Shown here: positions 44,701 to 59,902 of the stretch, in pieces
Layout of the letters: every line of letters starts with the position of its first letter
Numbering within the stretch: the stretch's first letter is position 1
Assembly (NCBI RefSeq): GCF_011682045.1
Contig: NZ_VVIW01000032.1
Span: forward strand, 1-64,000
DNA length: 64,000 nt
From: Massilia aquatica
GTDB lineage: Bacteria; Pseudomonadota; Gammaproteobacteria; Burkholderiales; Burkholderiaceae_D
Direction: 5' to 3'
Notes under the pieces: generated by a model
What the model was told of the DNA's origin: nothing
The model's input: the letters and a program-made list of their open reading frames with translations, nothing else
Database searches by the model: none
Position numbers and translations under genes: made by a program

Positions 44701-47358
44701 ACCGGCGACAACGACCGCATCGACCTGCTGCCCTCGGACAAACGCTACGAGCCGGGCCAGGACGCCACCTTCCAGGTGCGCAGCCCGTTCCGCGACGCCA
44801 GCGCGCTGATCACGGTCGAACGCGAAGGTATCCTCGACACCTACGTGCGTCGCCTCGATGGCAAGGAGCCTACTTTTACCATCCCGATGCTGGGCAAATA
44901 CGCGCCCAACGCCTATGTCTCGGCGCTGGTGGTGCGCGGCCGCGTGGCCGGGGTGCAGCCGACCGCCATGGTCGACCTGGGCAAGCCATCCTTCAAGCTG
45001 GGCATCGCGCCGGTGCAGGTGGGCTGGGGCGCGCATGAACTGAAGGTGAAGGTCACGACCGACAAACAGGATTACAAGGTGCGCGAGAACGCCAGCGTGA
45101 GCGTGAAAGTCACGCGCGCCGACGGCTCGCCCGCGCCGGCCGGCACCGAAGTGGCGCTGGCGGCGGTCGACGCGGGCCTCTTGGAACTGATGCCGAACCG
45201 TAGCTGGCGTTTGCTGAATGCCATGATGCAGGAACGCGCGCTCCAGGTGCAGACGGCGACCGCGCAGATGCAGGTGATCGGCAAGCGCCACTTCGGACGC
45301 AAGGCCGCGCCGCACGGCGGTGGCGGCGGCCAGGGCAGCCGCGAACTGTTCGACACGCTGCTGTTCTGGCATCCGCGCATCGTGCTCGACGCCAAAGGCG
45401 AAGCGCGCGTGCCGGTCGCGCTCAACGACACCCTGACCTCGTTTCGCATCGTGGCCGTGGCCAGCGGCGGCAGCGGCATGTTCGGCACCGGCGAAACCGA
45501 GATCCGCAGCAGCCAGGATCTGATCGTGCTGCCAGGGTTGCCGGCGCTGGTGCGCGAAGGCGACCGCCTGCGCGCCGGCTTCACCTTGCGTAACACCACC
45601 GACGCCGCCTTGACGGTCGACCTGGGCGCCAGCGTGGCGGCCGATGGCGGCCCCGCCAAGGTGCTGGCGCGCCAGAGCCTGACCCTGGCGCCCGGCGCGG
45701 CCCAGGAAGCCGGCTGGGATTATCAGGTACCGGCTGGCGCTGGCGCGCTGGCGTGGACCATCGACGCCCGCAGCGGCGGCGCCAGCGACAAGCTGCGCAT
45801 CGGCCAGAAGGTGCTGGCGGCGGTGCCGGTGCGCACCTTGCAATCGACCCTGGTGCGCATCGAGCAGCCGCAGTCGGTCAAGGTGCAGGCGCCGGCCGGC
45901 GCGCTGGCGGGGCAGGGCGGCGTGCGCGCCACGTTCGTGGCCAGTCTTGGCGCCAGCCTGCCCGGGGTGCGCGATTACATGAGCGCATATAAATACGGCG
46001 GCGTCGAGCAGGAAGCCTCGCGCGCCGTGGCCCTGCGCGACCCGGCCCTGTGGGACAAGCTGGCGGCATCGCTGCCGGCGCAGATCGACGCCGATGGCCT
46101 GGTCAAGTACTACCCGACCCAGGTCCAGGGCAGCGACAGCCTGACCGCTTACCTGCTCTCGGTCAGCGCCGAAGCCGGCCTGCCGCTCGCACCCGCGCTC
46201 AAGGAACGCATGGAGCGGGGCTTGCGCCAGTTCGTCGAAGGCAAGGTCACGCGCCCGGCGCGCGTGGCCCGCGTCGACACCGCCGTGCGCAAGATCGCCG
46301 CGCTCGAAGCGCTCTCGCGCACGCGGGCGGTGGCGCCGGAACTGCTCGAATCGTTCACCATTGAGCCGAACCTGTGGCCCACCTCGGCCGTCATCGACTG
46401 GTACCTGATCCTGCAGCGCAGCCCCGCGCTGGCCCAGCGCGACGCCCAACTGGCGCAGGTGCGGCAGGTGCTGCGCGCGCGGGTCAACCTGCAGGGCGCG
46501 GGCCTGGCCTTTTCGACCGACGCCAGCGACAACTGGTGGTGGCTCATGGCCTCGCCGGACAGCAACGCCAACCGCCTGCTGCTGGCCGTGCTCGACGATG
46601 CGACCTGGCAGGCCGACATGGGGCGCCTGGCGCGCGGCGCGCTGGGGCGCCAGCAAAAAGGGCGCTGGGGCACGACCCTGGCCAACGCCTGGGGCGTGCT
46701 GGCGCTCGACAAATTCTCGCGCAAATTCGAGCGCGAGGCGGTCACCGGCAGCAGCAGCGCGGGCCTGGGCAACACGGTCAAGGAAGCGAACTGGAATGCG
46801 CGCGGGGTCTCGGTCGTCAACCATCCATGGGGCACGGGCCAGCAAGAGCTGGTCCTGGCGCACAACGGCAGCGGCAAGCCGTGGGCCATCGTGCAAAGCC
46901 TGGCGGCGGTCGAACTCAAGGCGCCGCTGGCGAACGGCTATAAAATCGTCAAGACCATCACCCCGATCGAACAGAAGGTCAAGGGCGCGTGGTCGCGCGG
47001 CGATACCTACCGCGTGCGGCTCGACCTGGAAGCGCAGGCCGACATGACCTGGGTCGCGCTGGACGACCCGATTCCGGCCAGCGCCACCCTGCTCGGCAAC
47101 GGCCTTGGAGGCGACGCCGTCAACCTGCCCGGCGCCGCGCGCGAGGCCGGCAACCTGCGGCCGGTGTACGAGGAACGCAGCTTCGAGGCCTTCCGCGCCT
47201 ATTACGACTTTGTCCCCAAAGGCAAATGGCGCATCGAGTACAGCGTGCGCCTGAATAACCAGGGCCGCTTCAACCTGCCGCCGACCCGCATCGAAGCGCT
47301 GTACAGCCCCGAGCTGTCGGGCGACCTGCCGAATGCGGCGCTGGAAGTGGGGCGCTGA
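41740..47358 (+). CDS. Bacterial alpha-2-macroglobulin, thioester cysteine replaced (YfhM/MagD-like)
   Basis: 1872 residues with signal peptide (1-23, AHAQ). Periplasmic protein of the bacterial macroglobulin family, thought to trap proteases and guard the envelope, working with the adjacent pbpC. The succession MG domains, bait region (about 800-870 with many acidic residues, DDARFGHDDDSGADD), MG7-10 and a C-terminal helical thioester domain is evident. In the thioester position the sequence reads YKYGGVEQEASR (1417-1428): Gly1421 replaces the Cys of CLEQ, so no thioester can form. ATG 41740 has GGAG before it. The stop overlaps the pbpC start by 1 bp. Confidence 0.95.
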   Translation: MRAPSKLLSLFPLACLALAAHAQTTVEAFTPTGTVKEIRQVTARFSAPMVAFGDARMAEPFAIDCAEAGSGRWLDARIWTYDFARDLPPGVRCSFTLKPELRDLAAQPLAGTARFAFDTGGPGVRESAPYASDTVDEQQVFILGLDAPARAASIAAKAYCTVDGINERIGVRVLAGAEREQVLAARKGFVERYLKDYVRRGGAQPRAAEDLPLALVQCKRMLPPGAAVSLVWGAGIEGPGGVASGADQSLAFVTRADFSARFSCDFLTAGGPCVPLRPLRLSFNAPVTRTEAEKITLTDAAGKRYAPYWDGNSARAAPVNNLFFNGPFPEKSILTLALPPGLKNDDGRALVNQHEFPMTIRMDVLPPLIKFPAKFGIIEARTERLLPVTVRNVETRLSGKLRGAGAMLRVEVQGERQDLDVMAWLKRLGNGYSDNYTKSVFAGLKSGKPEAFTLPAPASGRPFEVIGVPLPKAGFYVVEFDSPKLGVALFDKKQRAYVSAGALVTNMAAHFKHGADSSLVWVTSLDKGRPVPGAAVAVRDCAGKLLWQGVTDGAGVARIDKPLARGDCPEGPGSMFVSARSGGDYTFTLSEWDNGIESWRFNLPFIPDASNSIVATVFDRTLLRVGETAHMKHFLRRSGSRGIEFDRASVEAKATSMTITHQGSATAYELPLRWNASGTAANEWVIPQGARLGVYTVKIGALEAGSFRVEQFRVPTMKALLNGPSAPLVGASAFDLDLQVGYLAGGVAARAPVKLRTLTEEKLLHFPGYEYYAFGAGDVREGVQDDARFGHDDDSGADDSAPAATDVRTRALVLDKAGGARVRIDDLPPGDVARTLVAELSYQDANGETLSTSTRIALWPASYVVGIKAEDSVSVRDKSSFEVVVLGVGGKPAADVAVEVDLFKRTSYTHRRRLIGGFYAYENSSEITRVGTACQGRSDAKGLLRCELRSPAEGNLILRARARDAGQRVAVTQRDIWVAGAAEMWFQTGDNDRIDLLPSDKRYEPGQDATFQVRSPFRDASALITVEREGILDTYVRRLDGKEPTFTIPMLGKYAPNAYVSALVVRGRVAGVQPTAMVDLGKPSFKLGIAPVQVGWGAHELKVKVTTDKQDYKVRENASVSVKVTRADGSPAPAGTEVALAAVDAGLLELMPNRSWRLLNAMMQERALQVQTATAQMQVIGKRHFGRKAAPHGGGGGQGSRELFDTLLFWHPRIVLDAKGEARVPVALNDTLTSFRIVAVASGGSGMFGTGETEIRSSQDLIVLPGLPALVREGDRLRAGFTLRNTTDAALTVDLGASVAADGGPAKVLARQSLTLAPGAAQEAGWDYQVPAGAGALAWTIDARSGGASDKLRIGQKVLAAVPVRTLQSTLVRIEQPQSVKVQAPAGALAGQGGVRATFVASLGASLPGVRDYMSAYKYGGVEQEASRAVALRDPALWDKLAASLPAQIDADGLVKYYPTQVQGSDSLTAYLLSVSAEAGLPLAPALKERMERGLRQFVEGKVTRPARVARVDTAVRKIAALEALSRTRAVAPELLESFTIEPNLWPTSAVIDWYLILQRSPALAQRDAQLAQVRQVLRARVNLQGAGLAFSTDASDNWWWLMASPDSNANRLLLAVLDDATWQADMGRLARGALGRQQKGRWGTTLANAWGVLALDKFSRKFEREAVTGSSSAGLGNTVKEANWNARGVSVVNHPWGTGQQELVLAHNGSGKPWAIVQSLAAVELKAPLANGYKIVKTITPIEQKVKGAWSRGDTYRVRLDLEAQADMTWVALDDPIPASATLLGNGLGGDAVNLPGAAREAGNLRPVYEERSFEAFRAYYDFVPKGKWRIEYSVRLNNQGRFNLPPTRIEALYSPELSGDLPNAALEVGR

Positions 47359-49460
47359 TGCGCGGCCTGGCCGCCTTGCTGGTGCTGGCGTTCGCCGCCC
47401 AGGCGCACGCCGTGCCCACGCCCGAGCAGGTCAGGGCGGCCTACCGCGCGTCGGACGCGCAGCTGCTCGACCGCCACGGCGTGCCGATCGATTCGCTGCG
47501 CACCGACATGGCGGTGCGGCGCGCCCCATGGGTGGGACTGGCCGACATTTCGCCGGCCATGCGCCTGGCGCTGGTGCACGCCGAAGACCGGCGCTTCATG
47601 CAGCACGACGGCGTCGACGTGGGCGCGCTCGGAAAAGCCGCCTGGGACAACCTGCTGCGCACCCGCGCGCGCGGCGCCTCGACCATCACCATGCAGCTCG
47701 CGGCCATGGTCGACGAGCGCCTGCGCGCCGGCGCCGGCGGGCGCAGCTGGGGCCAGAAATGGGACCAGGCCAGCGCCGCGCGCGAACTCGAAACCGGCTG
47801 GAGCAAGGCCCAGATCATGGAGGCCTACCTGAACCTGGTGCCGTTTCGCGGCGAACTGCAAGGCATCGGCGCAGCTTCGCAGGGCCTGTTCGGCAAGGCG
47901 CCTTCGGGATTGAACCAGGCCGAAGCGGCGATCCTGGCCAGCCTGCTGCGCGCTCCCTCGGCGGCGCCGCGCGTGGTGGCGCAGCGGGCCTGCGCGCTGG
48001 CCCGCGAGATCAACCCGGCGGCCAAGTGTGCCGGCATCGAGTGGGACGTGGCGGCCGCGTTCAGCCGGCCGTCCGCCAGCGCGCCACAAACCCAGGCGCC
48101 GCAGGTGGCGCAGCGCTTGCTCAAGGGCGCGGCGCGCCAGGTGCGCAGCACGCTCGACGCGGGCATCCAGCGCGACGCCGCCGACACCCTGCGCGCCCAC
48201 CTGGCCGCCCTGCGCGAGCGCAACGTGACGCAGGGTGCCCTGGTGGCCATCGATAACCAGAGCGGCGAAATCGTGGCGTATGTGGCCAACGGCGGCGCCA
48301 GCGAGGTCGATGGCGTGCTGGCGCTGCGCCAGGCCGGCTCCACCCTCAAGCCCTTCCTGTACCAGCTGGCGATGGAGCGCGGCTGGATCACGGCGGCTTC
48401 GCCGCAGGACGATTCGCCGCTCGAAATCGCCACCGCCGCCGGCCCCTACGTGCCGCAGAATTACGACCGCCAGTTCAAGGGCTGGGTCAGCACCCGCACC
48501 AGCCTGGCCAGCTCGCTCAACGTGCCGGCCGTGCGCATGCTGCAACTGACCGGCCTGGAACGCTTCCATGCGCGCCTGCGCGCGCTCGGCATGGCCAGCC
48601 TCTCGGAGCCGGCCGAATTTTACGGCTACTCGCTGGCGCTCGGCTCGGGCGACGTCTCGCTGCTGGAGCTGGCCAACGCCTACCGCACGCTGGCCAATGG
48701 CGGCCTGCATGGCAGCGTCACCCTGCAGCCGCGCGCCGCCCAGGCCCAGGCCAAGACCCGCGTGCTCGATGCGAAAACGGCCTTCATCGTCGGCGACATC
48801 CTGTCCGACCGGGCCGCGCGCAGCCTCACCTTCGGGCTGCGCAACGAACTGGCGACCGCCTTCTGGAGCGCCGTCAAGACCGGCACCAGCAAGGACATGC
48901 GCGACAACTGGTGCGTCGGCTACTCCGAAAAATACACGGTGGCGGTCTGGGTAGGCAATTTTGACGGCAGTCCGATGTGGGATGTGTCGGGCGTGACCGG
49001 CGCGGCGCCGGTGTGGCGCGACGTGATGGAGCGCCTGCACCGCGCGCTGCCGAGCCGCGCCCCGGCCGCGCCGCCCGGGCTGGTGCAGCAAACGGTCAGC
49101 TACCAGCCGGCCCTGGAAGCGGCGCGCCGCGAGTGGTTCGTGCGCGGCAGCGAGAGCGCGCAGGTAACCCTGGTCGGCAGCGAGAAGCGCCAGGCGGCCA
49201 TCCTGTATCCGGGCCAGGCCGGCGTGATCGCGCTCGATCCGGATATTCCGGCCGGGCGCGAACGGGTGGTGTTCCGCGCGCAGGGCGCGCACGGCCTGTC
49301 CTGGCGCCTTGACGGCGTGGCGCTGGGCGCGGGTTCTGCCAGCCACGCCTGGCAACCGGTCGCCGGCGAGCACGAACTGGCGCTGGTCGACGCAGGGAAC
49401 AAGGTGGTGGCGGCGACCCGCTTCAGCGTGCGCGGCGCGGCCGCGTCCATGCGTCATTAG
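47358..49460 (+). CDS. pbpC: Penicillin-binding protein 1C
   Basis: 700-residue bifunctional peptidoglycan synthase of the PBP1C type. Signal/anchor (1-20), GT51 transglycosylase with Glu76 in VHAEDRRF and the STITMQLA block, transpeptidase with Ser328 (GSTLKPF, Lys331), SSLN and KTGTS (Lys507), and a C-terminal BiPBP_C domain (about 610-700). All active residues are present. The start codon overlaps the macroglobulin stop (TGATG), so the two proteins are coupled, as usual in Gram-negative bacteria. Length is slightly shorter than the Escherichia coli enzyme. Confidence 0.97.
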   Translation: MRGLAALLVLAFAAQAHAVPTPEQVRAAYRASDAQLLDRHGVPIDSLRTDMAVRRAPWVGLADISPAMRLALVHAEDRRFMQHDGVDVGALGKAAWDNLLRTRARGASTITMQLAAMVDERLRAGAGGRSWGQKWDQASAARELETGWSKAQIMEAYLNLVPFRGELQGIGAASQGLFGKAPSGLNQAEAAILASLLRAPSAAPRVVAQRACALAREINPAAKCAGIEWDVAAAFSRPSASAPQTQAPQVAQRLLKGAARQVRSTLDAGIQRDAADTLRAHLAALRERNVTQGALVAIDNQSGEIVAYVANGGASEVDGVLALRQAGSTLKPFLYQLAMERGWITAASPQDDSPLEIATAAGPYVPQNYDRQFKGWVSTRTSLASSLNVPAVRMLQLTGLERFHARLRALGMASLSEPAEFYGYSLALGSGDVSLLELANAYRTLANGGLHGSVTLQPRAAQAQAKTRVLDAKTAFIVGDILSDRAARSLTFGLRNELATAFWSAVKTGTSKDMRDNWCVGYSEKYTVAVWVGNFDGSPMWDVSGVTGAAPVWRDVMERLHRALPSRAPAAPPGLVQQTVSYQPALEAARREWFVRGSESAQVTLVGSEKRQAAILYPGQAGVIALDPDIPAGRERVVFRAQGAHGLSWRLDGVALGAGSASHAWQPVAGEHELALVDAGNKVVAATRFSVRGAAASMRH

Positions 49461-49559: not shown

Positions 49560-50681
49560 ATGAACAATAGCCTCAACCAAGCCGCAGCGAGCCTGCGCGA
49601 CGCCATCCGCGACGCCGCCGATGGCCTGATCGACCGTGAATCCCTGGCCGAACTGATGATCCTCGGCGCGGTGGCGCAGGAACACCTGCTGGTGATCGGC
49701 CCGCCGGGCACCGCCAAGAGCGCCGTGGTGCGGCGCGTGGCGCACAGCCTGGGCGGACGCTATTTCGAGTATCTGCTGGGGCGCTTCACCGAGCCGTCCG
49801 AACTGTTCGGCGCGGTCAAGCTGGCCGGGTTGCGCGACGGCCGCATCGAGACCGACACCGGCGGCATGCTGCCCGAAGCCGACATCGCCTTCCTGGACGA
49901 AGTATTCCTGGGCTCGACCGCGATCCTCAACACCCTGCTGGGGGTCCTCAACGAGCGCCGCTTCCGGCGCGGGCATACCGACATCGCCTGTCCGCTGCGC
50001 CTGTGCGTGGCCGCGTCCAACGCGCTGCCCGACGACGACAGCCTGGCCGCCTTCGCCGACCGCTTTCTGTTGCACGTGTTCGTCGAGCCGGTGGCGGACG
50101 CGCGCCTGGAAGACTTGCTCGCCGGCGGCTGGGCGGCGGGGCAGCGCACGATCGCCCCACGCGCCGGCCTGGCCACGCTCGACGCCCTGCACGCGGCGCT
50201 GCCGCTGGTGGACATGAGCGCGGTGCGCTCCGATCTGGCGCAGGCCATCCGCGCCCTGCGCACGGCGCGCATTACGCTGTCGGACCGGCGCATCGTCAAG
50301 GCCCAGAACCTGATCGCCGCCGCCGCCGTGCTGGCCGGACGCCAGGTGGCTACCCGCGCCGACCTGTGGCCGCTGGTGTACGTGGTGCCCAGCGCCGCCG
50401 GCCAGCAAAGCGCGCGCGACACCTTGCACGCGCTGCTTGCCGAAGCGCGCCACCCGCTCCTGCAAGCGGTGGTCGAAAGCGCGGCGCAGCAGCCGCTGGC
50501 GCGCATTGCGCGCCTGGCCGACAGCGCCGACCGCCTGCTTGGCGGCGCCGCTGGCGACACCTTGCGCGGCGCAGCCGAAGCGCTGCTGCGCGAGATCGAC
50601 GCCAACTTCGGCGCCGACCACCTGCCGCCGGAACTGGCGCCGCGCCGCGCCGCCCTGGTGGCGGCGGTGCGCAACACCTGA
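49560..50681 (+). CDS. MoxR/RavA-type AAA+ ATPase of a bpX ternary system
   Basis: 373 residues. The AAA+ core has Walker A GPPGTAKS (47-54), a pore/loop block GRFTEPSELFGAVKLAGL, Walker B AFLDEVF (Asp113, Glu114), and a sensor-1 NALPDDDSLAAFADRF block with the arginine finger. The C-terminal part (about 210-373) is a helical lid longer than in simple MoxR proteins and resembles RavA. It most likely remodels the partner proteins encoded next to it. ATG 49560 is chosen over 49533. Stop and next start overlap (TGATG). First gene of the four-gene cluster 49560-55486. Confidence 0.92.
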   Translation: MNNSLNQAAASLRDAIRDAADGLIDRESLAELMILGAVAQEHLLVIGPPGTAKSAVVRRVAHSLGGRYFEYLLGRFTEPSELFGAVKLAGLRDGRIETDTGGMLPEADIAFLDEVFLGSTAILNTLLGVLNERRFRRGHTDIACPLRLCVAASNALPDDDSLAAFADRFLLHVFVEPVADARLEDLLAGGWAAGQRTIAPRAGLATLDALHAALPLVDMSAVRSDLAQAIRALRTARITLSDRRIVKAQNLIAAAAVLAGRQVATRADLWPLVYVVPSAAGQQSARDTLHALLAEARHPLLQAVVESAAQQPLARIARLADSADRLLGGAAGDTLRGAAEALLREIDANFGADHLPPELAPRRAALVAAVRNT

Positions 50682-51103
50682 TGGCGGCGTTGCGCTGGCA
50701 CCTCCGGCCCGACGCGGCGCCCGAGCCGCACGGCCAGGTCGCGCAAGGCGCCGTGATCGGCGCGCTGCTGGCGCGCCTGGCCGCGCTGGACGACGCCCAG
50801 CGCGGCGTGCTCGGCGCCGTGGCCGCGCCCGGCATCCTGGTGCTGCTCGGACCCGGCGCCGCGCTGCCCTGGGTCGACGGTGCGCGCTACTGCGCCCCGG
50901 ACCCGCTCCAGCGCATGCTGTGGCTGCCCACCGACGTGCAGCCGCAAGCGCCGCCCGACCTGGTGCTGGCCAATCTGTCGGCGCGCGGCGCCAGCCTGCC
51001 GTTCCTGCTGTGGGATGCGCCGCAGCTGGTGCTACCGCTTGGCCGGCCGCTGGCGCTCGACCGCGCCGGCCTGGCCTGGCTGACCGGGGAACTGACGCCA
51101 TGA
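50681..51103 (+). CDS. Small bpX-cluster protein (140 residues)
   Basis: No catalytic motif. Hydrophobic strands alternate with helices (AVAAPGILVLLGPGAALPWVDGARYCAPDP, then LWLPTDVQPQAPPDLVLANL). It overlaps its neighbours on both sides by 1 and 4 bp (MoxR stop TGATG, next start ATGA), which is strong evidence that it is translated with them. In MoxR-vWA-beta-propeller systems a small bpX-like subunit lies at this position; the assignment is by context. The start at 50681 follows from the overlap. Confidence 0.75.
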   Translation: MAALRWHLRPDAAPEPHGQVAQGAVIGALLARLAALDDAQRGVLGAVAAPGILVLLGPGAALPWVDGARYCAPDPLQRMLWLPTDVQPQAPPDLVLANLSARGASLPFLLWDAPQLVLPLGRPLALDRAGLAWLTGELTP

Positions 51104-52926
51104 CCTTGCCCGCGCAACTGCTGCCGTGGCGTGCCTGGCTGGCGGGCATGACGCCCGAACTGGCCGCCCCGCTCGGACAGATGCTGCTCCAGCTTGAGCC
51201 GCTGTTGGAGCGCATGAACCACCCCGGCGCCGGCGCCGGGAGCGCGGCGGCGGGTGCTGGCAGCATTGCCCGGCGCGGTCCGTACGAGCGGCTGCTCCTG
51301 AGCGAGCACGCGGTGGCCGACGCCGCGCCGGACGAATTCCTGCGCCGCGCGGCGGCCGGCGAACTGCTGTTTTCGGCGCCGGAGCCGGACCTGCCGCAAG
51401 GTGCGCGCGTGTGCGTGGCGCTGTTCGACAGCGGCCCGGAGCAGCTGGGCGAACCGCGCCTGGCGCAGATGGCGCTGTACATCCTGCTGGCGCGGCGCGC
51501 CGAACTGGCCGGCGCCGGCTTTCGCTGGGGCGTCCTGCAAGACCCGTGCGCGCTGCGCGACGGCCCCGACGGATTGCAGGCCTGGCTCGCTGCGCGCAGC
51601 CTCACGCGCGCGCACGAGACCCATGTGAACGAATGGCAGGTGGCCATCGGCGCGCTGGACGAGCGGGTCGAACTGTGGCAGATCGGCGCGCCCGGCGGCG
51701 TGGCGCTGGCGCGGCTTGATGCGCGCGTGAGCATCGCGCCGGTGCTGAGCGGCGGCGTGGAGGTCACGCTCAGCGGGCCGCGGCGCCAGCGCACGCTGCT
51801 GCTGGCAATGCCGGACACGCCAGCCGGCGCGCGCCTGCTGCGCCATCCGTTCAAGCGCGCCGCGCTGGCGCACGCCAGGCAGCGCGGCGTGGACCGCTTG
51901 TCGCTCACGCGCGCGCCGCAGTTCGGCCTGCACGGCGACTGGATCGCGGCCGCCATGCAGCAGCAGGGCGCGGCCCTGCATCATGCGCCGTCCGAACCCG
52001 CCAGGTCGTCCGCCGGGCGGCGCTTGCAGCCGCGCCGCGTGCACGTCAAGCCGGGCACGATTCGCCTGGGGACGGTCCTGAGCGAGCGCACCCTGGCCTG
52101 GGTCGACTACCGCGATGGCGCCCTGGTTTTCACCGCGTTCCCGGACCAGGCCTTCGGCGCGCTGCGCACGGTGGCGCTGCCGCCGGCCGCGCAGTTCCTC
52201 CTGCCGGATGAGGAGGACGCCGGGCTGCCGACTTTTTTCCTGAGCGACCATGCGCCGGCCTGCGCCGGCGCGCGCGTGTTCATGCTCGACCGCGCCGGCC
52301 AACTCGGCTGCTGGAAGGTGACCGGCCAGGACGCCGGCGCCAGCGTGCGTTTCGACCAGCTGGCCGACCAGGTGGTGGGCGCCGCCCAGCTGCCTGCGAC
52401 GCTCATGTATGCCAGGAATGTCGGCAACTTCACCACGGTGCACGCGATCGACCAGGACGATAAATTCCCGACCCAGGTCGCCGACTTGCCCTTCGCGGCG
52501 CGGCGCGTGCTGTTCGGGGCGCCGCAGGACCGCGCGCGGCGCGGCTGGGTGGCGGCGCTCGAGGGCGACGCGCAGGACTGGGTACTGGCGAGCGTGGGCG
52601 CGGAGCCGCAAGCGCCGTTCGCGCTGGCCGTCGCCGCCGGCGCCACGGTGGTGGGCGTGGCGCGCAGCACGCCGCTGCCAGACGGCAAGCCGGCCCTGCT
52701 GGTGCTGGATGCGCAGCGCCGCGCGCTCGCGCTGCACAGCGCGGACGGCGCCGTCGCCGTGCTGCAGAGCGCGGTGCCGATCGCCCAGGTGGTGTTAGAC
52801 ACCAACAGCGAACGGCTGTGCTGGGTCGACGATCACCACGAACTGCATGTGCGCCTGCTGCACGGCGGGCCGGCCTTGCTGCATATCGGGGCCGATGGGG
52901 CCGGGGGTGCCAGCGATGCCGGTTGA
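51100..52926 (+). CDS. vWA-like / beta-propeller component of the MoxR system
   Basis: 608 residues, no signal. The first part (about 90-240) has a vWA-like succession (RVCVALFDSGPEQLGEPRLAQMALYILLARRAELAG): the place of the metal site reads FDSGP, not DxSxS, so metal binding is probably lost. From about 300 there are repeated four-stranded blades (TLAWVDYRDGALVFTAF; ARVFMLDRAGQLGCWKV; QDWVLASVGAEPQ; PALLVLDAQRRALAL) typical of a beta-propeller, the bpX domain. Start ATG 51100 overlaps the small gene's stop (ATGA), and its own end overlaps the next start by 11 bp. Partner of the MoxR ATPase by context. Confidence 0.8.
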   Translation: MTLPAQLLPWRAWLAGMTPELAAPLGQMLLQLEPLLERMNHPGAGAGSAAAGAGSIARRGPYERLLLSEHAVADAAPDEFLRRAAAGELLFSAPEPDLPQGARVCVALFDSGPEQLGEPRLAQMALYILLARRAELAGAGFRWGVLQDPCALRDGPDGLQAWLAARSLTRAHETHVNEWQVAIGALDERVELWQIGAPGGVALARLDARVSIAPVLSGGVEVTLSGPRRQRTLLLAMPDTPAGARLLRHPFKRAALAHARQRGVDRLSLTRAPQFGLHGDWIAAAMQQQGAALHHAPSEPARSSAGRRLQPRRVHVKPGTIRLGTVLSERTLAWVDYRDGALVFTAFPDQAFGALRTVALPPAAQFLLPDEEDAGLPTFFLSDHAPACAGARVFMLDRAGQLGCWKVTGQDAGASVRFDQLADQVVGAAQLPATLMYARNVGNFTTVHAIDQDDKFPTQVADLPFAARRVLFGAPQDRARRGWVAALEGDAQDWVLASVGAEPQAPFALAVAAGATVVGVARSTPLPDGKPALLVLDAQRRALALHSADGAVAVLQSAVPIAQVVLDTNSERLCWVDDHHELHVRLLHGGPALLHIGADGAGGASDAG

Positions 52927-55486
52927 GGTGCGCCAGCCGCTGTTCCATGGGCGCTGCGCGGTGCACGCACTCTGGTTCGACCTCGACCTGATCGGGCCGG
53001 ACGAGGCGCGCCGGCGCGTGCTGGCGCACTGGCAGGCCGGCTCGCACCTGTTTCTCGCCGGCGGCGGCTACCTGCTGCGCTGGCCGGCGCCACGCTGGCA
53101 GCAGGTGGACACGCTCGACGCGCTGGCCTTGTGCCAGGTCGGCCATGTGCTTGGCAGCGCCCCCTTGAGCCAAACCGAACTGGCCACACTGCCGGCCGGG
53201 ACGGTCTGGCTGGTGCGGGCCGGGGTGGCGCAGGCGGCGCTGCCGCAAGAACGGCTCGATGCGGCAGCCTGGCTGGCGCTCGACGCGATTACCCTGTGCG
53301 TGCCGCTGGCGCCCCCAAGCCCGCCGGCCGCCGATGCCATGCTGGCGCCGATCGCGCTGGAGGTGGTGCTGGGCGCGGCCATGCCACGGCGCAATGCCGC
53401 CAGCATCGCCTTTGAACGCGGTCTTGCGTTGCCGGCGCCGTCCGGCCAGCCGGAAGTGCAAGCGAGCGGCGGCCCGGATGCTGCTGCGGCGGCGCCGGGT
53501 TTCGTGGCGCGCCTGCTGTCGCGCTGGCGCCTGGGTCCGGCGGCGCCGCCCGCGCCGGCTGCGCGCGCTCTTTCGTCCAGTTACCTCGACATGGTGATCG
53601 CGCTGTTCGCCGGCGGCGACCTGGCCATGGCACTGAGCCACGCGGTGCCGGTTGGCGCCGTCGACAGCGGCGGCGCCGCGCAGATGCTGCCTTTGCGCCG
53701 CCAGATGAGCGCCGACGGCACGCCGGCATGGGCGACGCCGCTCACCAGCGCGTACGCGGCGCTGTTGCGCAGCGTCTACCGCAGCGCCTTCGAGCAACTC
53801 GACGGCGCGGGGCGGGTCGATGAAGCTGTGTATGTGCTGGCCGGGCTGCTGCAGTGTCCGCGCGAAGCGGTGGCCTATCTGGAACAGAAGCAGCGCTACG
53901 GGCAGGCGGCCCGGCTGGCCGAGCAGGCGAAGCTGGAGGCGCCGCTGGCGGTGCGTCTGTGGCTGCTGGCCGGCGAGCTCGAACACGCGGTCCGGCTGGC
54001 GCGCCTGCACAACGTATTCGACGCCGCCGTGCAACTGCTCGAGACCAACGGCAGCGTGCTGGCGGCGCCGCTGCGGCGCCACTGGGCCGCCTACCTGGCC
54101 GAACGCGGCGACTTGGTCGAAGCGGCCGCCGTGCTGCGCAGCTTGCCCGACCAGCGGGCGCAGACGCTGGCCTGGCTGGCCCAGGCCGAGCGCCATGGCG
54201 GCACCTTGGGCATGCGCGCGCTGGCCTTCAAGCTGGCGCTCGACCCGGCCACGCTGCACGAGAGCGCGGCCGACATCACGGCGCTGCTGGCGGCCGGCGG
54301 CGAGGACGGCGCCGGACTGCGCGCCAGCCTGGCGCTGGCGCTGCTCGGGAAGGGCATGCCGGCCGTGGCGACATCAACGGCGAGCTGGCGCGTCGCTGGT
54401 GAACTGCTGCGCAAGGTCTTGCCCGAACGGCTGGAAGGCGCCAACCGGCTCGACGCCGAGGCGCTGGCCGCGCTGGCCGGCCTGGCCGGCGGCACGGCGC
54501 TGCACGCCGACCTGCCGCGTTATCGCATCGCGCCCGAGCCGCATGTGCCGCCGCTGACCGAACGCGACGCGTCGCTGGCGCTGCGCCTGGACCAGCGCGG
54601 CCTGCTGCCGATCCACGATGCGCGCTGCCTGGCGGACGGCCAGTACCTGCTGGCGCTGGGCCAGGGCGGGGTGCTGCGGGTCGACCGCGACGGCCGCCAG
54701 CTGGCGCATTATCCGGTGCCGGCCGAGCACCTGGTGCTGTCGTACAACGGCACGCGCGCGCTGGCGCTGGCGCGGCGCGGGTCGCAGTACCGCATCAGCC
54801 GGCTGGACCTGGTCACTGGCGACGCCGCCGACTGGCTGGGCATCGACTTGCAGCACTGGTCGGGCAGCTACGACGGGGTGTCGTGGAATGTGGCCTTCGA
54901 ACGCCGCCTGGCCGTGCTCGACACCTGCGCGCCGCAGCAGCGCATTGTCTGGGAGGTGGCTGGCTTGCCCGGCGAGATCGTCGGCTACCGCGACCGCGGC
55001 GACGCGCTGGCGGTAGTGCTGCGGGTGGCGGACGGGATCGAGCAATGGACCTACCACCAGCCGGGGCGGCAACTGCGCCAGCGCGACTGGTGGAAGAGTC
55101 GCTCGCTCGCGCGCGCCACCCACCTGCTGCCGGGCCCGCCGTACTCGAGCCCGTGGCCGGTGTTCGTCGACGAGCAGGCGGGGACGGTCACCCTGATGCT
55201 CCGCGAGCATCCCTTGCGCATGCCGGTCGCGCTGGCGCCGCAGGCGGCGCGTGAGGTGCGGATCGACGGCAAGGCCATCGTCTTCGTGGGCAGCGAGGGC
55301 GATGCGATGTGCTGCAATGTGGTCAGCCTGAGCGAAAACGCGATGCACGTTCGGATCGCGCTGCCCGATGCGCTGGCGCCGGGGTTCAGCCTGCACGACG
55401 CGCGCCTCTTGGTGTTCGACCGCGCCGGGCGCCTGGTCGACCTCGATTGTGACAGCGGCAAGCTGCGCAGCCTGTGCCTGCGCTGA
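52916..55486 (+). CDS. bpX6-like helical and beta-propeller component of the MoxR system
   Basis: 856 residues. N-terminal about 150 residues form a bpX6-type domain (RQPLFHGRCAVHALWFDLDLIG, WLALDAITLCVPL). A Pro/Ala linker follows (about 175-210), then helical repeats (about 215-540: AFEQLDGAGRVDEAVYVLAGLL, AKLEAPLAVRLWLLAGELEHAVRLAR). A C-terminal beta-propeller (about 550-856) has blades such as GQYLLALGQGGVLRVDRDGRQLAHYPV and ends VDLDCDSGKLRSLCLR. No enzyme motif. ATG 52916 lies inside the end of the previous gene. Reading the cluster, it is the large sensor/scaffold. The family name is from memory of the published classification and has not been searched. Confidence 0.78.
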   Translation: MPVEVRQPLFHGRCAVHALWFDLDLIGPDEARRRVLAHWQAGSHLFLAGGGYLLRWPAPRWQQVDTLDALALCQVGHVLGSAPLSQTELATLPAGTVWLVRAGVAQAALPQERLDAAAWLALDAITLCVPLAPPSPPAADAMLAPIALEVVLGAAMPRRNAASIAFERGLALPAPSGQPEVQASGGPDAAAAAPGFVARLLSRWRLGPAAPPAPAARALSSSYLDMVIALFAGGDLAMALSHAVPVGAVDSGGAAQMLPLRRQMSADGTPAWATPLTSAYAALLRSVYRSAFEQLDGAGRVDEAVYVLAGLLQCPREAVAYLEQKQRYGQAARLAEQAKLEAPLAVRLWLLAGELEHAVRLARLHNVFDAAVQLLETNGSVLAAPLRRHWAAYLAERGDLVEAAAVLRSLPDQRAQTLAWLAQAERHGGTLGMRALAFKLALDPATLHESAADITALLAAGGEDGAGLRASLALALLGKGMPAVATSTASWRVAGELLRKVLPERLEGANRLDAEALAALAGLAGGTALHADLPRYRIAPEPHVPPLTERDASLALRLDQRGLLPIHDARCLADGQYLLALGQGGVLRVDRDGRQLAHYPVPAEHLVLSYNGTRALALARRGSQYRISRLDLVTGDAADWLGIDLQHWSGSYDGVSWNVAFERRLAVLDTCAPQQRIVWEVAGLPGEIVGYRDRGDALAVVLRVADGIEQWTYHQPGRQLRQRDWWKSRSLARATHLLPGPPYSSPWPVFVDEQAGTVTLMLREHPLRMPVALAPQAAREVRIDGKAIVFVGSEGDAMCCNVVSLSENAMHVRIALPDALAPGFSLHDARLLVFDRAGRLVDLDCDSGKLRSLCLR

Positions 55487-55506: not shown

Positions 55507-56013
55507 ATGAGCGATAAACCTGATAATCCCTACTCGCCCCCGGCCGGCGCGGGCGGAACGGGAACCAGTCACGCGGACTACGTGCCGTCCGTGTTCGGGC
55601 TGCACGGGCGCATCGGGCGCGCGCGCTACCTGATGTATTCGGTCTATCCCACCTGCGCCGCGCTGGTGCTGCTGGCGCCGATGTTCATGTTGCCGAATAT
55701 TTTCCTGAAGTTTGCCGTGATCGGGTTCGGGCTGCTGTCTTTGCTGTCGCATTTGCTGATCGTCGCCGCGCGCCGCCTCGACGACATGGACCAGCCGCGC
55801 TGGCTGATCGTGCTGCTCGGGGTGCCGGTCGTAAACGGGCTGTTCGTGCTGTATCTGCTGAGTTTCCCCGGCGATCCGCAGGCCAACCGGCACGGCGCTG
55901 CGCCCACCTCGAGCCTGTCGGCGCTGACCAAGAGCTTATGGGTGAGCTGTGCGCTGCCGCCGCTGATTTTGCTGGCGCTGTACCTGCTCGCCACCTTCAA
56001 ATTGCCAGTATGA
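55507..56013 (+). CDS. DUF805-family membrane protein A
   Basis: 168 residues. N-terminus MSDKPDNPYSPPAG is a polar leader, followed by the DUF805 mark GLHGRIGRARYLMYSV and four hydrophobic segments (near 45-65, 70-90, 98-118, 138-160). It begins 20 bp after the bpX6-like gene and on the same strand, so it could be read through from the MoxR cluster. DUF805 proteins are of unknown function. The loop ARRLDDMDQPRW is the family's second motif. Confidence 0.85.
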   Translation: MSDKPDNPYSPPAGAGGTGTSHADYVPSVFGLHGRIGRARYLMYSVYPTCAALVLLAPMFMLPNIFLKFAVIGFGLLSLLSHLLIVAARRLDDMDQPRWLIVLLGVPVVNGLFVLYLLSFPGDPQANRHGAAPTSSLSALTKSLWVSCALPPLILLALYLLATFKLPV

Positions 56014-56082
56014 TATTGCAAGCGTTTCATGCCGACACAGCACCAGCGCCCACGCACTGACCATCGAAGGGGAGCGAGACCA

Positions 56083-56571
56083 TTGGATAATCCGTACGCA
56101 GCGCCGGCATCGACCAACCCGGCGCCCGATCAGCGTGCCAGCTACACACCCACGCCGTTCAGCCTGGACGGGCGGATCGGGCGCCTGCGTTTCCTGGTGT
56201 GGGCGTTCTTGCCGGCTGTCGTGCTGCTGATGCTGCTGGCGTATCTGATCGGCCAGCTCGGCTTGGTCGAGCGGCGCGGGATCGTGCAACTGCTCGTGCT
56301 GGCGGCCGGGCTGGTGGCGCTGGCAATCGCACTGGCGATGACGCGGCGCCGCCTGCACGACCTGGCGCGGCCGGGGTGGTGGGCGCTGCTCATACTGCTG
56401 CCGCCGGTCAATCTGCTGCTGATCGGCTATCTGGCCTACCGCGCCGGCGACGCCGGCGGCAACCGCTACGGGCCGCCGCCGTCCGAGAACACGACCCTGG
56501 TGGCGGCCGGGATGTGGGGCATGCTGTTGCTGGCGGTGACCGCGATTGCGGCGCAGTTCGAGATCCGGTGA
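56083..56571 (+). CDS. DUF805-family membrane protein B (TTG start)
   Basis: 162 residues from the TTG at 56083, which has GGGGAG 7 bp upstream; this gives MDNPYAAPAST, matching the NPY leader of the previous protein. The open frame reaches back to an ATG at 56029 but without ribosome site. DUF805 hallmarks: FSLDGRIGRLRFL, the TRRRLHDLARPGWWALL loop and four hydrophobic stretches. It follows protein A after 69 bp; a tandem paralogous pair. Confidence 0.82.
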   Translation: MDNPYAAPASTNPAPDQRASYTPTPFSLDGRIGRLRFLVWAFLPAVVLLMLLAYLIGQLGLVERRGIVQLLVLAAGLVALAIALAMTRRRLHDLARPGWWALLILLPPVNLLLIGYLAYRAGDAGGNRYGPPPSENTTLVAAGMWGMLLLAVTAIAAQFEIR

Positions 56572-57585: not shown

Positions 57586-58905
57586 CTACAGCTGCCCGCT
57601 TTCCTTGATGTCCAGGTAGCGGTTCACCAGCGCGGTACTGAGCTGGTCCGGGGTGATGTCGATCAGGCGTTCGGCGCGGATGCCGAGGCGGCGGATGGCG
57701 TCGCGCCGCTGTTGCAGGTAATGCACGGTGGCGCTGTAGCGCAGGGCGCTGGCGAAGGTCTCGACCTGCTTGGTGCGGGTGCCGTCCATGACCTTTTCGC
57801 GCAGGCTGGCGCAGATTACCAGGTGCTTGGAGGACATCAGCTCGCAGGCCGAGCGCAGCGCCGTGTCGTCTTCGTCGCGCAGGTTGGTGATGATGACCAC
57901 GAAGGCGCGCTTGCTCAGGCGATTGAGCAGGTTGCTGGCCGCTTGCAGGTAGTCGGGCGCCATTTCGGCCGGCTGCAGGTCGTACACGCCGGCCAGCAGG
58001 CGATCGAGCCCGTTGCGGCCTTTGCTCGGGGCCAGCCAGCGCGTCTCGGCGCCGCCGAAGGTCATCAGGCCGACCGCGTCGCCCTGTTTTTGCGCCAGAA
58101 AGCCGAGCGTGAGCACGGCGTTCAGCGCATGGTCGAAGTGGGTGGTGAGCTCGTCGCGCGCCAGCATGCGGCGCCCGGTGTCGAGCAGGAACACGACCTG
58201 CTGGTCGCGCTCTTCCTGGTATTCGCGGGTGATCGGTTTCTGGCGCCGCGCGGTCGCTTTCCAGTCGATCGAACGCATGCTGTCGCCGTCGCGGTATTCG
58301 CGCAGCTGGCGGAAGTCGGTGCCTTCGCCGCGGCGCCGTTTGCGGATCGCGCCGGCCGCCGGGGCGCGCCGGTCGGTGGCCGAGAGGGTGTGCCCGAGCA
58401 GCTTGGAAAAGTCGGGGAACACCTTGACGCTGCTGGCCTCGCCCAGGCGGTGCATGCGCTGCCACAGGCGCAGCGGCGAGCGCACGCGCAGGTGGGCCGC
58501 GCCAAAAGCGGCCTGGCCGCGCTGGTCGGGGCACAAGGTGTAGGTGACGGCGGCGTAGGCGCCCGGCGCGATCTGGCTGGCGTGCGGCAAGCCCTGCATG
58601 CCCCAGCTGGCGGGGTAATCGTCGTACAGGTCAAGCGCGAGCGCGCGCGTGCCTTCGTTATGCAGTTTGAGCGTGACCTTGTTCCAGGTCCCGACCGGCC
58701 ACACGCCGGCCAGCTCGCGCTCGAGCCGCAATTGCGGCGTGCGGCGCGAGATCCAGGCGTCGGCGCAGGCGGCCACCAGCGCGGCCAGCCCGGCGCCTTG
58801 CCACAGCGGCAGCAGCGCCGGCACGTGGCTGGCGGCCGCGCCCAGCAGCGCCCAGCCGCCGGCGACAGCCAGCAGGGTGCGCGACGGCGTCAGGGCGTCA
58901 GCCAC
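57586..58905 (-). CDS. DUF58 family protein with degenerate vWA domain
   Basis: 439 residues. Two N-terminal helices (about 10-45) anchor it in the membrane, a beta-rich middle follows, and the DUF58 signature is read as FRQLREYRDGDSMRSIDWKATARRQKPITREYQEERDQ (about 197-235). The vWA-like fold (VVFLLDTGRRM, about 240-330) has LLDTG at the metal-site position. Such proteins work with the MoxR ATPase encoded directly upstream, whose stop it overlaps by 8 bp. Family-typical length. Confidence 0.93.
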   Translation of the reverse strand: MADALTPSRTLLAVAGGWALLGAAASHVPALLPLWQGAGLAALVAACADAWISRRTPQLRLERELAGVWPVGTWNKVTLKLHNEGTRALALDLYDDYPASWGMQGLPHASQIAPGAYAAVTYTLCPDQRGQAAFGAAHLRVRSPLRLWQRMHRLGEASSVKVFPDFSKLLGHTLSATDRRAPAAGAIRKRRRGEGTDFRQLREYRDGDSMRSIDWKATARRQKPITREYQEERDQQVVFLLDTGRRMLARDELTTHFDHALNAVLTLGFLAQKQGDAVGLMTFGGAETRWLAPSKGRNGLDRLLAGVYDLQPAEMAPDYLQAASNLLNRLSKRAFVVIITNLRDEDDTALRSACELMSSKHLVICASLREKVMDGTRTKQVETFASALRYSATVHYLQQRRDAIRRLGIRAERLIDITPDQLSTALVNRYLDIKESGQL

Positions 58906-59902
58906 GCGGCGCGGCGATTTCTTCGATCAGGCCAAGCAGCAGGTCGTCGCTGGAGAGGCCATCGAGTTCGCTTTCCGGGGACACCGCGATGCGGTGGCGC
59001 AGCACCGGCAGGGCGGCCGCCTTGATGTCGTCGGGGGTGACGTAATCGCGTCCGGACGTCAACGCCATGGCGCGCGCCATGCGCACCAGCGCGATGCACC
59101 CGCGCGGGCCGGCGCCGATGGCAATGCCGGGCCAGTCGCGCGTGGCGCGCACCAGCCGCACGGCGTAGGCGGAGACCGCATCGTCGACGCGGATCTTGGC
59201 CACCAGCTGCTGCAGCGCGACGATGGTGTCGGGTTTGACCAGGGTGGCCACCTGGTTCACATCGAGGCCGTCGCCGACGCGGTCGCGCGTGACCAGGCGC
59301 AGCATCTGTTCTTCTTCGTCCACGCTCGGATAGTCGATCCGCACCTTGATCAGAAAGCGGTCCAGCTGCGCTTCCGGCAACGGGTAGGTGCCTTCGTTTT
59401 CCAGCGGATTCTGCGTGGCCAGCACCATGAACGGCGGTGGCAGCTGGTGCGATTCGCCTTCGATCGTCACCTGGCGCTCCTGCATCACTTCGAGCAGCGA
59501 GGACTGGGTCTTGGCCGGGGCGCGGTTGATTTCGTCGGCCAGCAGCAGGTGCGAAAACACAGGACCCTTGCGCACGCTGAAGGACTGGGTCTTCATGTCG
59601 TAGACGGCGTGGCCCATGACGTCGGCCGGCATCAGGTCGGGGGTGAACTGGATGCGCGAAAACTCGCCCGAGAAGGTCTTGGCCAGGGCCTTGACCAGCA
59701 AGGTCTTGCCCAGGCCCGGCACGCCTTCGATCAGTACGTGGCCGCCGGCCAGGCAGCAGGCCAGCACCTGGTCGACGACGGCCTGCTGGCCGATCACGGC
59801 GCTGCGGATTTCCTCGCGCATGCGCGCGACGATGCCGATCGCCTGGGTCAGACGGTCGGCCGGAATGGCGCTGGCGGCGCTGCTGGCGGTGCTATCGTTC
59901 AT
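58898..59902 (-). CDS. MoxR-type AAA+ ATPase
   Basis: 334 residues of the classical MoxR family: MREEIRSAVIGQQAVVDQVL, Walker A EGVPGLGKT, the GEFSRIQFTPDLMPADVMGHAVYD block, Walker B LLLADEINRAPAKTQ and the sensor/arginine region QNPLENEGTYPLPEAQLDRF. All ATPase residues intact. It overlaps DUF4350 (upstream) by 11 bp and DUF58 (downstream) by 8 bp. With these it forms the standard operon in which MoxR remodels the vWA/DUF58 partner, possibly in protein maturation or envelope stress. Confidence 0.96.
   Translation of the reverse strand: MNDSTASSAASAIPADRLTQAIGIVARMREEIRSAVIGQQAVVDQVLACCLAGGHVLIEGVPGLGKTLLVKALAKTFSGEFSRIQFTPDLMPADVMGHAVYDMKTQSFSVRKGPVFSHLLLADEINRAPAKTQSSLLEVMQERQVTIEGESHQLPPPFMVLATQNPLENEGTYPLPEAQLDRFLIKVRIDYPSVDEEEQMLRLVTRDRVGDGLDVNQVATLVKPDTIVALQQLVAKIRVDDAVSAYAVRLVRATRDWPGIAIGAGPRGCIALVRMARAMALTSGRDYVTPDDIKAAALPVLRHRIAVSPESELDGLSSDDLLLGLIEEIAAPRG

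Follow-up and report, generated by a model that had tools for sequence, protein, structure and literature searches.

One question raised by a 64,000-nucleotide stretch of Massilia aquatica (contig NZ_VVIW01000032.1, positions 1 to 64,000 of the forward strand; hereafter the window) is which part of the four-gene MoxR ATPase cassette that it carries is held constant and which part is free to vary, and what this division suggests about the role of the cassette. The cassette belongs to the published beta-propeller MoxR-vWA (von Willebrand factor A) ternary class, an already known type. What is new is evolutionary: tandem arrays of the third gene in relatives, a split of its product (protein 3) into a constant and a variable part, and conflicting trees for these two parts. 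A conserved motor and docking segment, together with variable, amplified and recombining propellers, fits at the level of sequence what a recognition repertoire should look like. The cassette and its parts, all on the + strand, are as follows, with the basis of each assignment in brackets.

49560–55486, +: four-gene cassette, in the order moxR, bpX5, vWA-like/propeller gene (protein 3), bpX6 gene (protein 4)
49560–50681, +: bpMoxR AAA+ ATPase, 373 residues (PF20030, motifs, RavA match)
50681–51103, +: bpX5 small subunit, 140 residues (PF19921)
51100–52926, +: vWA-like/propeller protein (protein 3), 608 residues, single copy in the window (model, copies in relatives)
51100–51429, +: constant N-terminal segment of protein 3, residues 1–110 (identity means)
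51406–51843, +: vWA-like alpha/beta region of protein 3, residues ~103–248 (model secondary structure, motif)
51892–52899, +: variable beta-propeller of protein 3, residues ~265–600 (Foldseek, identity means)
52916–55486, +: bpX6-TPR-propeller protein (protein 4), 856 residues (PF19922, model, Foldseek)
52928–53401, +: bpX6 domain of protein 4, residues 5–162 (PF19922 match)
53741–54520, +: helical TPR-like middle of protein 4, residues ~276–535 (model secondary structure)
54563–55483, +: C-terminal propeller of protein 4, residues ~550–856 (model, Foldseek)

Tandem arrays at a shared chromosomal site

Six genomes (that of the window, G002, G005, G007, G009 and G016) share one cassette site, which follows an alpha-2-macroglobulin gene and pbpC. 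At this site the protein 3 gene is present once in the window, twice in G002, G005, G007 and G016 and five times in G009, as counted by a whole-genome search in which all first-look candidates were scored; no extra copies were found elsewhere in nine genomes. Each array is accompanied by single copies of moxR, bpX5 and the bpX6 gene (in G009 the contig ends within this last gene), and all 8 of the joins between array copies are 4-base overlaps with an ATG start. The five-copy array comes from a draft assembly; G002 and G016 are assemblies of one and two contigs, respectively, and draft assembly alone therefore does not account for the arrays. In G009 and G007 the first copy lacks about residues 44–103, and one G009 copy consists of the propeller only.

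In the window itself the four genes overlap end to end at the joins that an earlier note on this sequence, made by a model from the letters alone, had described: the moxR stop codon TGA (50679–50681) shares base 50681 with the bpX5 start codon (TGATG), bpX5 and the protein 3 gene overlap by ATGA, and the protein 3 and bpX6 genes overlap by 11 nucleotides. The note had gone on to read this tight coupling as implying a fixed stoichiometric complex, which as a general rule is ruled out because relatives have anywhere from one to five copies of gene 3.

The same chromosomal site is seen both occupied, in the six genomes, and unoccupied. In the sister genome G003, the PbpC of which is 93% identical, pbpC is followed directly by DUF805 genes and the cassette is missing; a whole-genome search found no homologue of protein 3 anywhere. 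Occurrence is patchy more broadly (all counts take in the genome of the window): bpX6 occurs in 8 of the 17 genomes in the genus and in 14 of the 294 in the family, bpX5 in 5 of 369 genomes of the class (4 exceed the cut-off), and protein 3 in at least 4 of 399 genomes of the order, a lower bound because that survey scored at most three candidates per genome. A scan of genome contigs with MoxR yielded 35 loci, labelled as Myxococcota (23), Massilia (5), Janthinobacterium (3), Stenotrophomonas (2), Undibacterium (1) and Comamonas (1).

A constant N-terminus and a variable propeller

Among 11 full-length copies of protein 3 (55 pairs), mean amino acid identity is 0.81 for residues 1–110, 0.60 for residues 111–250 and 0.44 for the propeller; these means, as well as the N-terminal trees described below, omit copies 1 and 2 of G009 and copy 1 of G007, in which the N-terminus is incomplete. 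The same gradient is found in 98 pairs of single-copy loci with a MoxR identity of at least 0.80, which are mostly from Myxococcota with a few from Oxalobacteraceae, leave out multi-copy loci and are not independent of one another: mean identities are 0.85 for MoxR, 0.82 for the N-terminus of protein 3, 0.69 for residues 111–250 and 0.46 for the propeller, and the propeller falls below the N-terminus in all 98 pairs. For protein 4 the corresponding means are 0.64 (bpX6 domain), 0.53 (linker), 0.68 (helical middle) and 0.53 (propeller); its propeller thus varies too, less than that of protein 3. That propellers simply evolve fast does not hold for TolB, also a propeller, which is 93–97% identical between the genome of the window and G002, G003, G005, G007, G009 and G016 (80–81% for two more distant genomes). 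The variability of protein 3 is therefore not a general propeller trait.

Mosaic copies and selection

Within the arrays, the two ends of protein 3 differ in their apparent ancestry. Copies 4 and 5 of G009 have 97% nucleotide identity over codons 1–110 and 52% over the propeller, with the drop near residues 120–150. Copy 2 of G002, compared with its counterparts in G005 and G016, has a synonymous divergence (dS) of 0.25–0.26 over the N-terminus, close to that of pbpC among these three genomes (0.26–0.28), and of 0.76–0.84 in the propeller, and its similarity to the counterparts recovers at the C-terminal end. Phylogenetic trees (LG+G4 without a mixture model, with a long-branch warning at the outgroup) group the N-termini of copies 1 and 2 of G005, G002 and G016 by genome clade (82/92, not starred) and the propellers by paralogue (starred). 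In approximately unbiased (AU) tests, the N-terminal data reject paralogue groups (P = 0.004, 0.002 and 0.001) and the propeller data reject genome-clade groups (P = 1e-43 and 9e-12). On these trees the copies are mosaics, their N-terminal and propeller ends having evidently different histories.

The propeller of the window groups with the first copies of G005, G002 and G016 (96/95). The propeller data reject the type A copies as a clade without the window (P = 0.014), because the window falls inside type A. The protein 3 N-terminus of the window is 0.65–0.69 identical to the three copies compared, the non-synonymous divergence (dN) of its moxR to the five carrier relatives is about 0.11 versus 0.026–0.077 for pbpC, and a tree of moxR plus bpX5 does not reject the species grouping (AU test, P = 0.43). 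The cassette of the window may reflect a separate arrival in this lineage or a loss of copies.

Diversity-generating retroelements require a reverse transcriptase. All six site-sharing genomes have RVT_1 (PF00078) reverse transcriptases, 2 to 5 each, none of them near the cassette: in the four drafts no contig carries both, and the distance is at least about 130 kb in G016 and more than 1 Mb in G002. No local reverse transcriptase therefore explains the variation. Among sister pairs (G007–G009 and the three pairs of G005, G002 and G016), dN/dS is 0.10–0.18 for pbpC, 0.15–0.17 for moxR, 0.09–0.20 for bpX5, 0.19–0.33 for the bpX6 protein (G007–G009 from 178 codons) and 0.29–0.59 for protein 3; more distant copy pairs reach approximately 1, at dS values too high to trust.

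Several of our results weigh against a diversified recognition role. Positive selection is unproven because all sister-pair values of dN/dS are below 1, and a combination of relaxed constraint and recombination would leave a similar pattern. The groups given to the AU tests were named after the trees had been seen, and a clade of G007 and G009 N-termini is not in the best tree and is not rejected (P = 0.39). Some propellers are near-identical between genomes: the copy 1 propellers of G005 and G002 share 95% of nucleotides (dS of 0.10 versus 0.18 for the N-terminus) and the copy 2 propellers of G005 and G016 share 91%. Tandem arrays are confined to one small clade among the loci examined, the protein 3 gene being single in all 34 other loci with a match (cut by the contig end in L030). 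Pfam identifies no known effector domain among the four proteins, and PADLOC returns weak ATPase matches to protein 1 alone (best E 1.1e-5). No recognisable defence gene is present among 19 flanking reading frames in five other loci, 6 of the frames having no family; the frames were chosen by length and third-base G+C, and two of them, in L027, lie on the strand opposite to an alpha-2-macroglobulin gene and are probably not genes.

Proposed role and alternatives

Sequences and models give directly the genes, their domains and overlaps, the split of protein 3, the arrays of relatives and the mosaics. On this footing, the most likely reading, to which we give about even odds, is that the cassette is an intracellular recognition-and-response machine. 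In the complex that we infer, a MoxR hexamer, with bpX5 as adaptor, would engage the constant N-terminus of protein 3, the variable propeller of which would bind a non-self protein; ATP-driven remodelling would then relay the signal, in that direction, to the bpX6-TPR-propeller protein, which would execute a response that putatively protects against an invader. One propeller gene was found in the genome of the window, so in this proposal the machine would have a single specificity here. The assignment of protein 3 as sensor and of MoxR as relay carries over a logic proposed for other MoxR systems, in which the vWA proteins have a variable ligand-binding domain (PMC10907252). In the systems described there, C-type lectin domains are hypermutated by a reverse transcriptase, whereas here propeller genes are duplicated and recombined. 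The ligand may be phage-borne, from a competitor or a kin marker. The conflict role is still a prediction, to which the patchy occurrence, the occupied and unoccupied site and the strong domain diversification lend support.

A further suggestion, which we make tentatively and hold to be doubtful, is that the propeller genes form a bacterial receptor repertoire: constant N-termini would dock on one shared MoxR–bpX5–bpX6 machine while a set of exchangeable propellers would be renewed through tandem duplication, recombination among the constant ends and propeller replacement, with no linked reverse transcriptase required. If true, this would give MoxR-linked systems a second route to varied sensors, in addition to that of diversity-generating retroelements. 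The propeller branch was predicted in 2020; the earlier note knew of no experimental function, and a literature search likewise found no experiment on this branch, and no demonstrated sensor, ligand or test. The constant/variable split singles out the propeller of protein 3 as the part to examine first, and the empty site of G003 and the one-copy and five-copy genomes provide natural controls at one locus.

Among the alternatives, we regard as unlikely a housekeeping chaperone of the RavA–ViaA type, in which MoxR would remodel cellular substrates and the propeller would be a weakly constrained docking module. Like the cassette, RavA–ViaA of Escherichia coli has a MoxR-class ATPase, and RavA is the nearest solved relative of the window MoxR by sequence (E 3.4e-38); the stability of the site beside pbpC in the clade and the sister-pair dN/dS below 1 also fit this alternative. 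However, the NCBIfam RavA equivalog model scores the window MoxR at 154.1 bits, far below its cut-off of 681, searches for bpX6 came up empty in 9 of the 17 genus genomes and in 280 of the 294 family genomes, the cassette is missing from the sister G003, and array expansion with propeller replacement would be odd for a housekeeping adaptor. RavA–ViaA is also not known to have propellers or bpX domains.

Allorecognition or kin discrimination is, in our estimation, rather improbable. The same machinery would here serve a propeller that, within mats, biofilms or swarms, distinguishes cells belonging to other lineages, and not phages, and 23 of the 35 relatives are labelled as Myxococcota. The products of the Podospora HNWD/het genes are eukaryotic NOD-like receptors (NLRs) and are not known to involve a MoxR. 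Variable WD-repeat proteins in this fungus, with propeller-type repeats diversified for the purpose, reportedly carry out non-self recognition (PMC2873952 and PMC1805685), a likeness for which we claim no shared ancestry. The cassette, however, has no toxin, secretion or immunity domain that Pfam could name, and the four proteins of the window have no clear membrane segment (the highest 19-residue hydropathy is 1.92).

Least probable is that the variable N-terminal region of the bpX6 protein is the effector or variable element, as Kaur et al. (PMC7159879) suggested for the third component, in which they locate the variability of this subsystem at the N-terminal end, and that variation in protein 3 is incidental. 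Variation is indeed seen in the bpX6 domain and in the linker (means of 0.64 and 0.53), but the propeller of protein 3 varies more (0.46) and the arrays amplify gene 3 only.

Class membership and domain assignments

The earlier note had assigned the cassette to the MoxR-vWA-bpX ternary class, rightly according to Pfam matches and the description by Kaur et al. 2020 (PMC7159879), the account of which for subsystem 4 lists a MoxR, a vWA protein that ends in a propeller, and a further protein that combines TPR and a propeller. The cassette is like this subsystem in its GXXXTAKS P-loop, its divergent, vWA-like protein with a C-terminal propeller and its TPR/propeller third component. Points of difference are the tandem arrays of the relatives, on which a term search of the main text of that paper gave nothing for this subsystem, and the third component, described there with a membrane segment; protein 4 of the window has no membrane-spanning segment as judged by hydropathy only (maximum 1.67). 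The missing segment alone does not exclude membership, because Kaur et al. count it within the variable region. In L023, L024, L026 and L053, the bpX6 proteins have a hydrophobic stretch near residue 190 (hydropathy of 2.2–2.4) that could span a membrane.

The Pfam search that the note had called for (one hmmscan) matched three families, far above what chance would give, with bpX6 inside 51100–55486. The bpMoxR model PF20030 matched at E 1.5e-85 (285.9 bits versus a cut-off of 27); the same model is above cut-off in 12 of 14 control genomes, and the weight of the assignment therefore lies in the E value, the cut-off alone being unspecific. bpX5 (PF19921) matched at E 1.2e-34 and bpX6 (PF19922) at E 7.5e-36 on residues 5–162 of protein 4; PF19922 matched none of the 14 control genomes, and the bpX6 domain was found in all 30 protein 4 sequences. 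The window MoxR has a Walker A motif, GPPGTAKS, at residue 47 and a Walker B motif, FLDE, at residues 111–114, so that Glu114 had been correctly named as the Walker B glutamate. Of 42 sequences scanned, the window included, 38 have GPPGTAKS and 3 have GPPGTGKS; in 1 (L055) the P-loop motif was not found.

The AlphaFold model of protein 4 (mean predicted local distance difference test (pLDDT) score of 80.0, alignment of 30 sequences) begins with an alpha/beta region, continues with helices and ends in a propeller, with target-normalised template modelling (TM) scores of 0.55 to WIPI2 and 0.43 to a BamB among the Foldseek matches listed. In Foldseek, whole models were aligned and the best 50 rows examined. 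The model of protein 3 (mean pLDDT of 86.3, alignment of 40 sequences) has a C-terminal all-beta region, at which the Protein Data Bank matches are propellers (TM scores of 0.58 to Hsv2 and 0.54 to a 7-bladed design among the matches listed); the top-ranked rows for this protein are large multi-domain chains with a root mean square deviation above 15 and low TM scores, and were given no weight. No Pfam family matched protein 3 at E ≤ 1. The propeller family Gmad1 was matched at E ≤ 0.01 by 7 of 40 protein 3 sequences (best E 4.6e-5), that of the window not being among them.

Of the folds that the note had expected, the propellers were thus recovered in both proteins, and the vWA fold of protein 3 was not. 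In the alpha/beta region of protein 3, a near-invariant Asp ends the first strand, and DSGPEQ stands at the position of the DxSxS metal-ion-dependent adhesion site (MIDAS). Set against vWA topology, the first half of the modelled secondary structure runs in vWA order, and after the fourth strand there are three strands, not further alpha/beta units. A canonical vWA is unsupported by hhalign: the profile of this region does not match a vWA profile of 23 sequences drawn from this and other genomes (22 genuine sequences and one misplaced, L089; probability of 0.4%). Nor does it match either of two cleaner subsets, of 11 and 10 sequences (0.4% and 0.3%), which omit L089 and L120, agree in outcome with the larger profile and match one another at 98.5%. 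A Bacteroidota form of the system provides a further comparison:

L128, 8296–16132: Hymenobacter plasmid, with bpX4, bpMoxR, bpX2, a bpX0/bpX1 protein and a bpX3 protein

Like the window, this form has bpMoxR and two large counterpart proteins that can be aligned to proteins 3 and 4; unlike the window, it has accessory bpX0–4 instead of bpX5 and bpX6. Residues 48–136 of protein 3 align with the bpX0/bpX1 protein (probability of 79%, E 1.5e-5), so that protein 3 takes the position of the ‘vWA’ component, and residues 206–337 of protein 4 align with its counterpart there (E 7.9e-10). The bpX0/bpX1 protein, as a single sequence, likewise failed against the vWA profiles, and Kaur et al. remark that some vWA domains of this subsystem are without one or both aspartates (PMC7159879). 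From the failed profiles, the Bacteroidota alignment and this remark, we therefore prefer ‘vWA-like’, a label that rests on family context.

The same four-gene order, ravA-bpX5-6ND4-bpX6, is tabulated for a region of genome plasticity (RGP_32) of Pseudomonas syringae clade 2b-a (PMC9677677); in the table the genes are unique orthologous groups, and the likeness is one of gene order, not of sequence comparison.

Neighbouring genes and wider occurrence

Small DUF805 genes follow the cassette in tandem (window 55507–56571; L082 5474–7310), and the cassette-free genome has three DUF805 genes in a row at the site. An alpha-2-macroglobulin gene adjoins the cassette in two unrelated settings, which could be coincidence (window 41740–49460; L028 16144–21063; L027 5950–11190): with pbpC it lies upstream in the Massilia clade, and it lies directly downstream in both Stenotrophomonas loci. 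A canonical MoxR-DUF58 pair lies 2 kb downstream of the cassette (window 57586–59902, − strand), the MoxR of which is also, weakly, above the bpMoxR cut-off. In nine Myxococcota loci, reading frames sit between moxR and bpX5.

Carriage on mobile elements is rare rather than excluded: a tblastn search with protein 4 returned no phage record and one plasmid record (Embleya). For the MoxR protein, 82 plasmid records gave matches; in 2 the match covered at least 80% of the protein, and one record, from Hymenobacter, holds the Bacteroidota form (L128). MoxR relatives that are 56% and 53% identical are on very large plasmid records of Embleya sp. NBC_00888 (L130) and Methylobacterium bullatum (L129), respectively. 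In Embleya, an actinobacterium, a protein 4 relative lies downstream of the MoxR relative; the phyla named by Kaur et al. (PMC7159879) are mostly others. The locus labelled as Comamonas sp. KCTC 72670 (L040) is a near-myxobacterial copy, with a MoxR identity of 0.85 to L039, and reflects either transfer or a mislabelled record.

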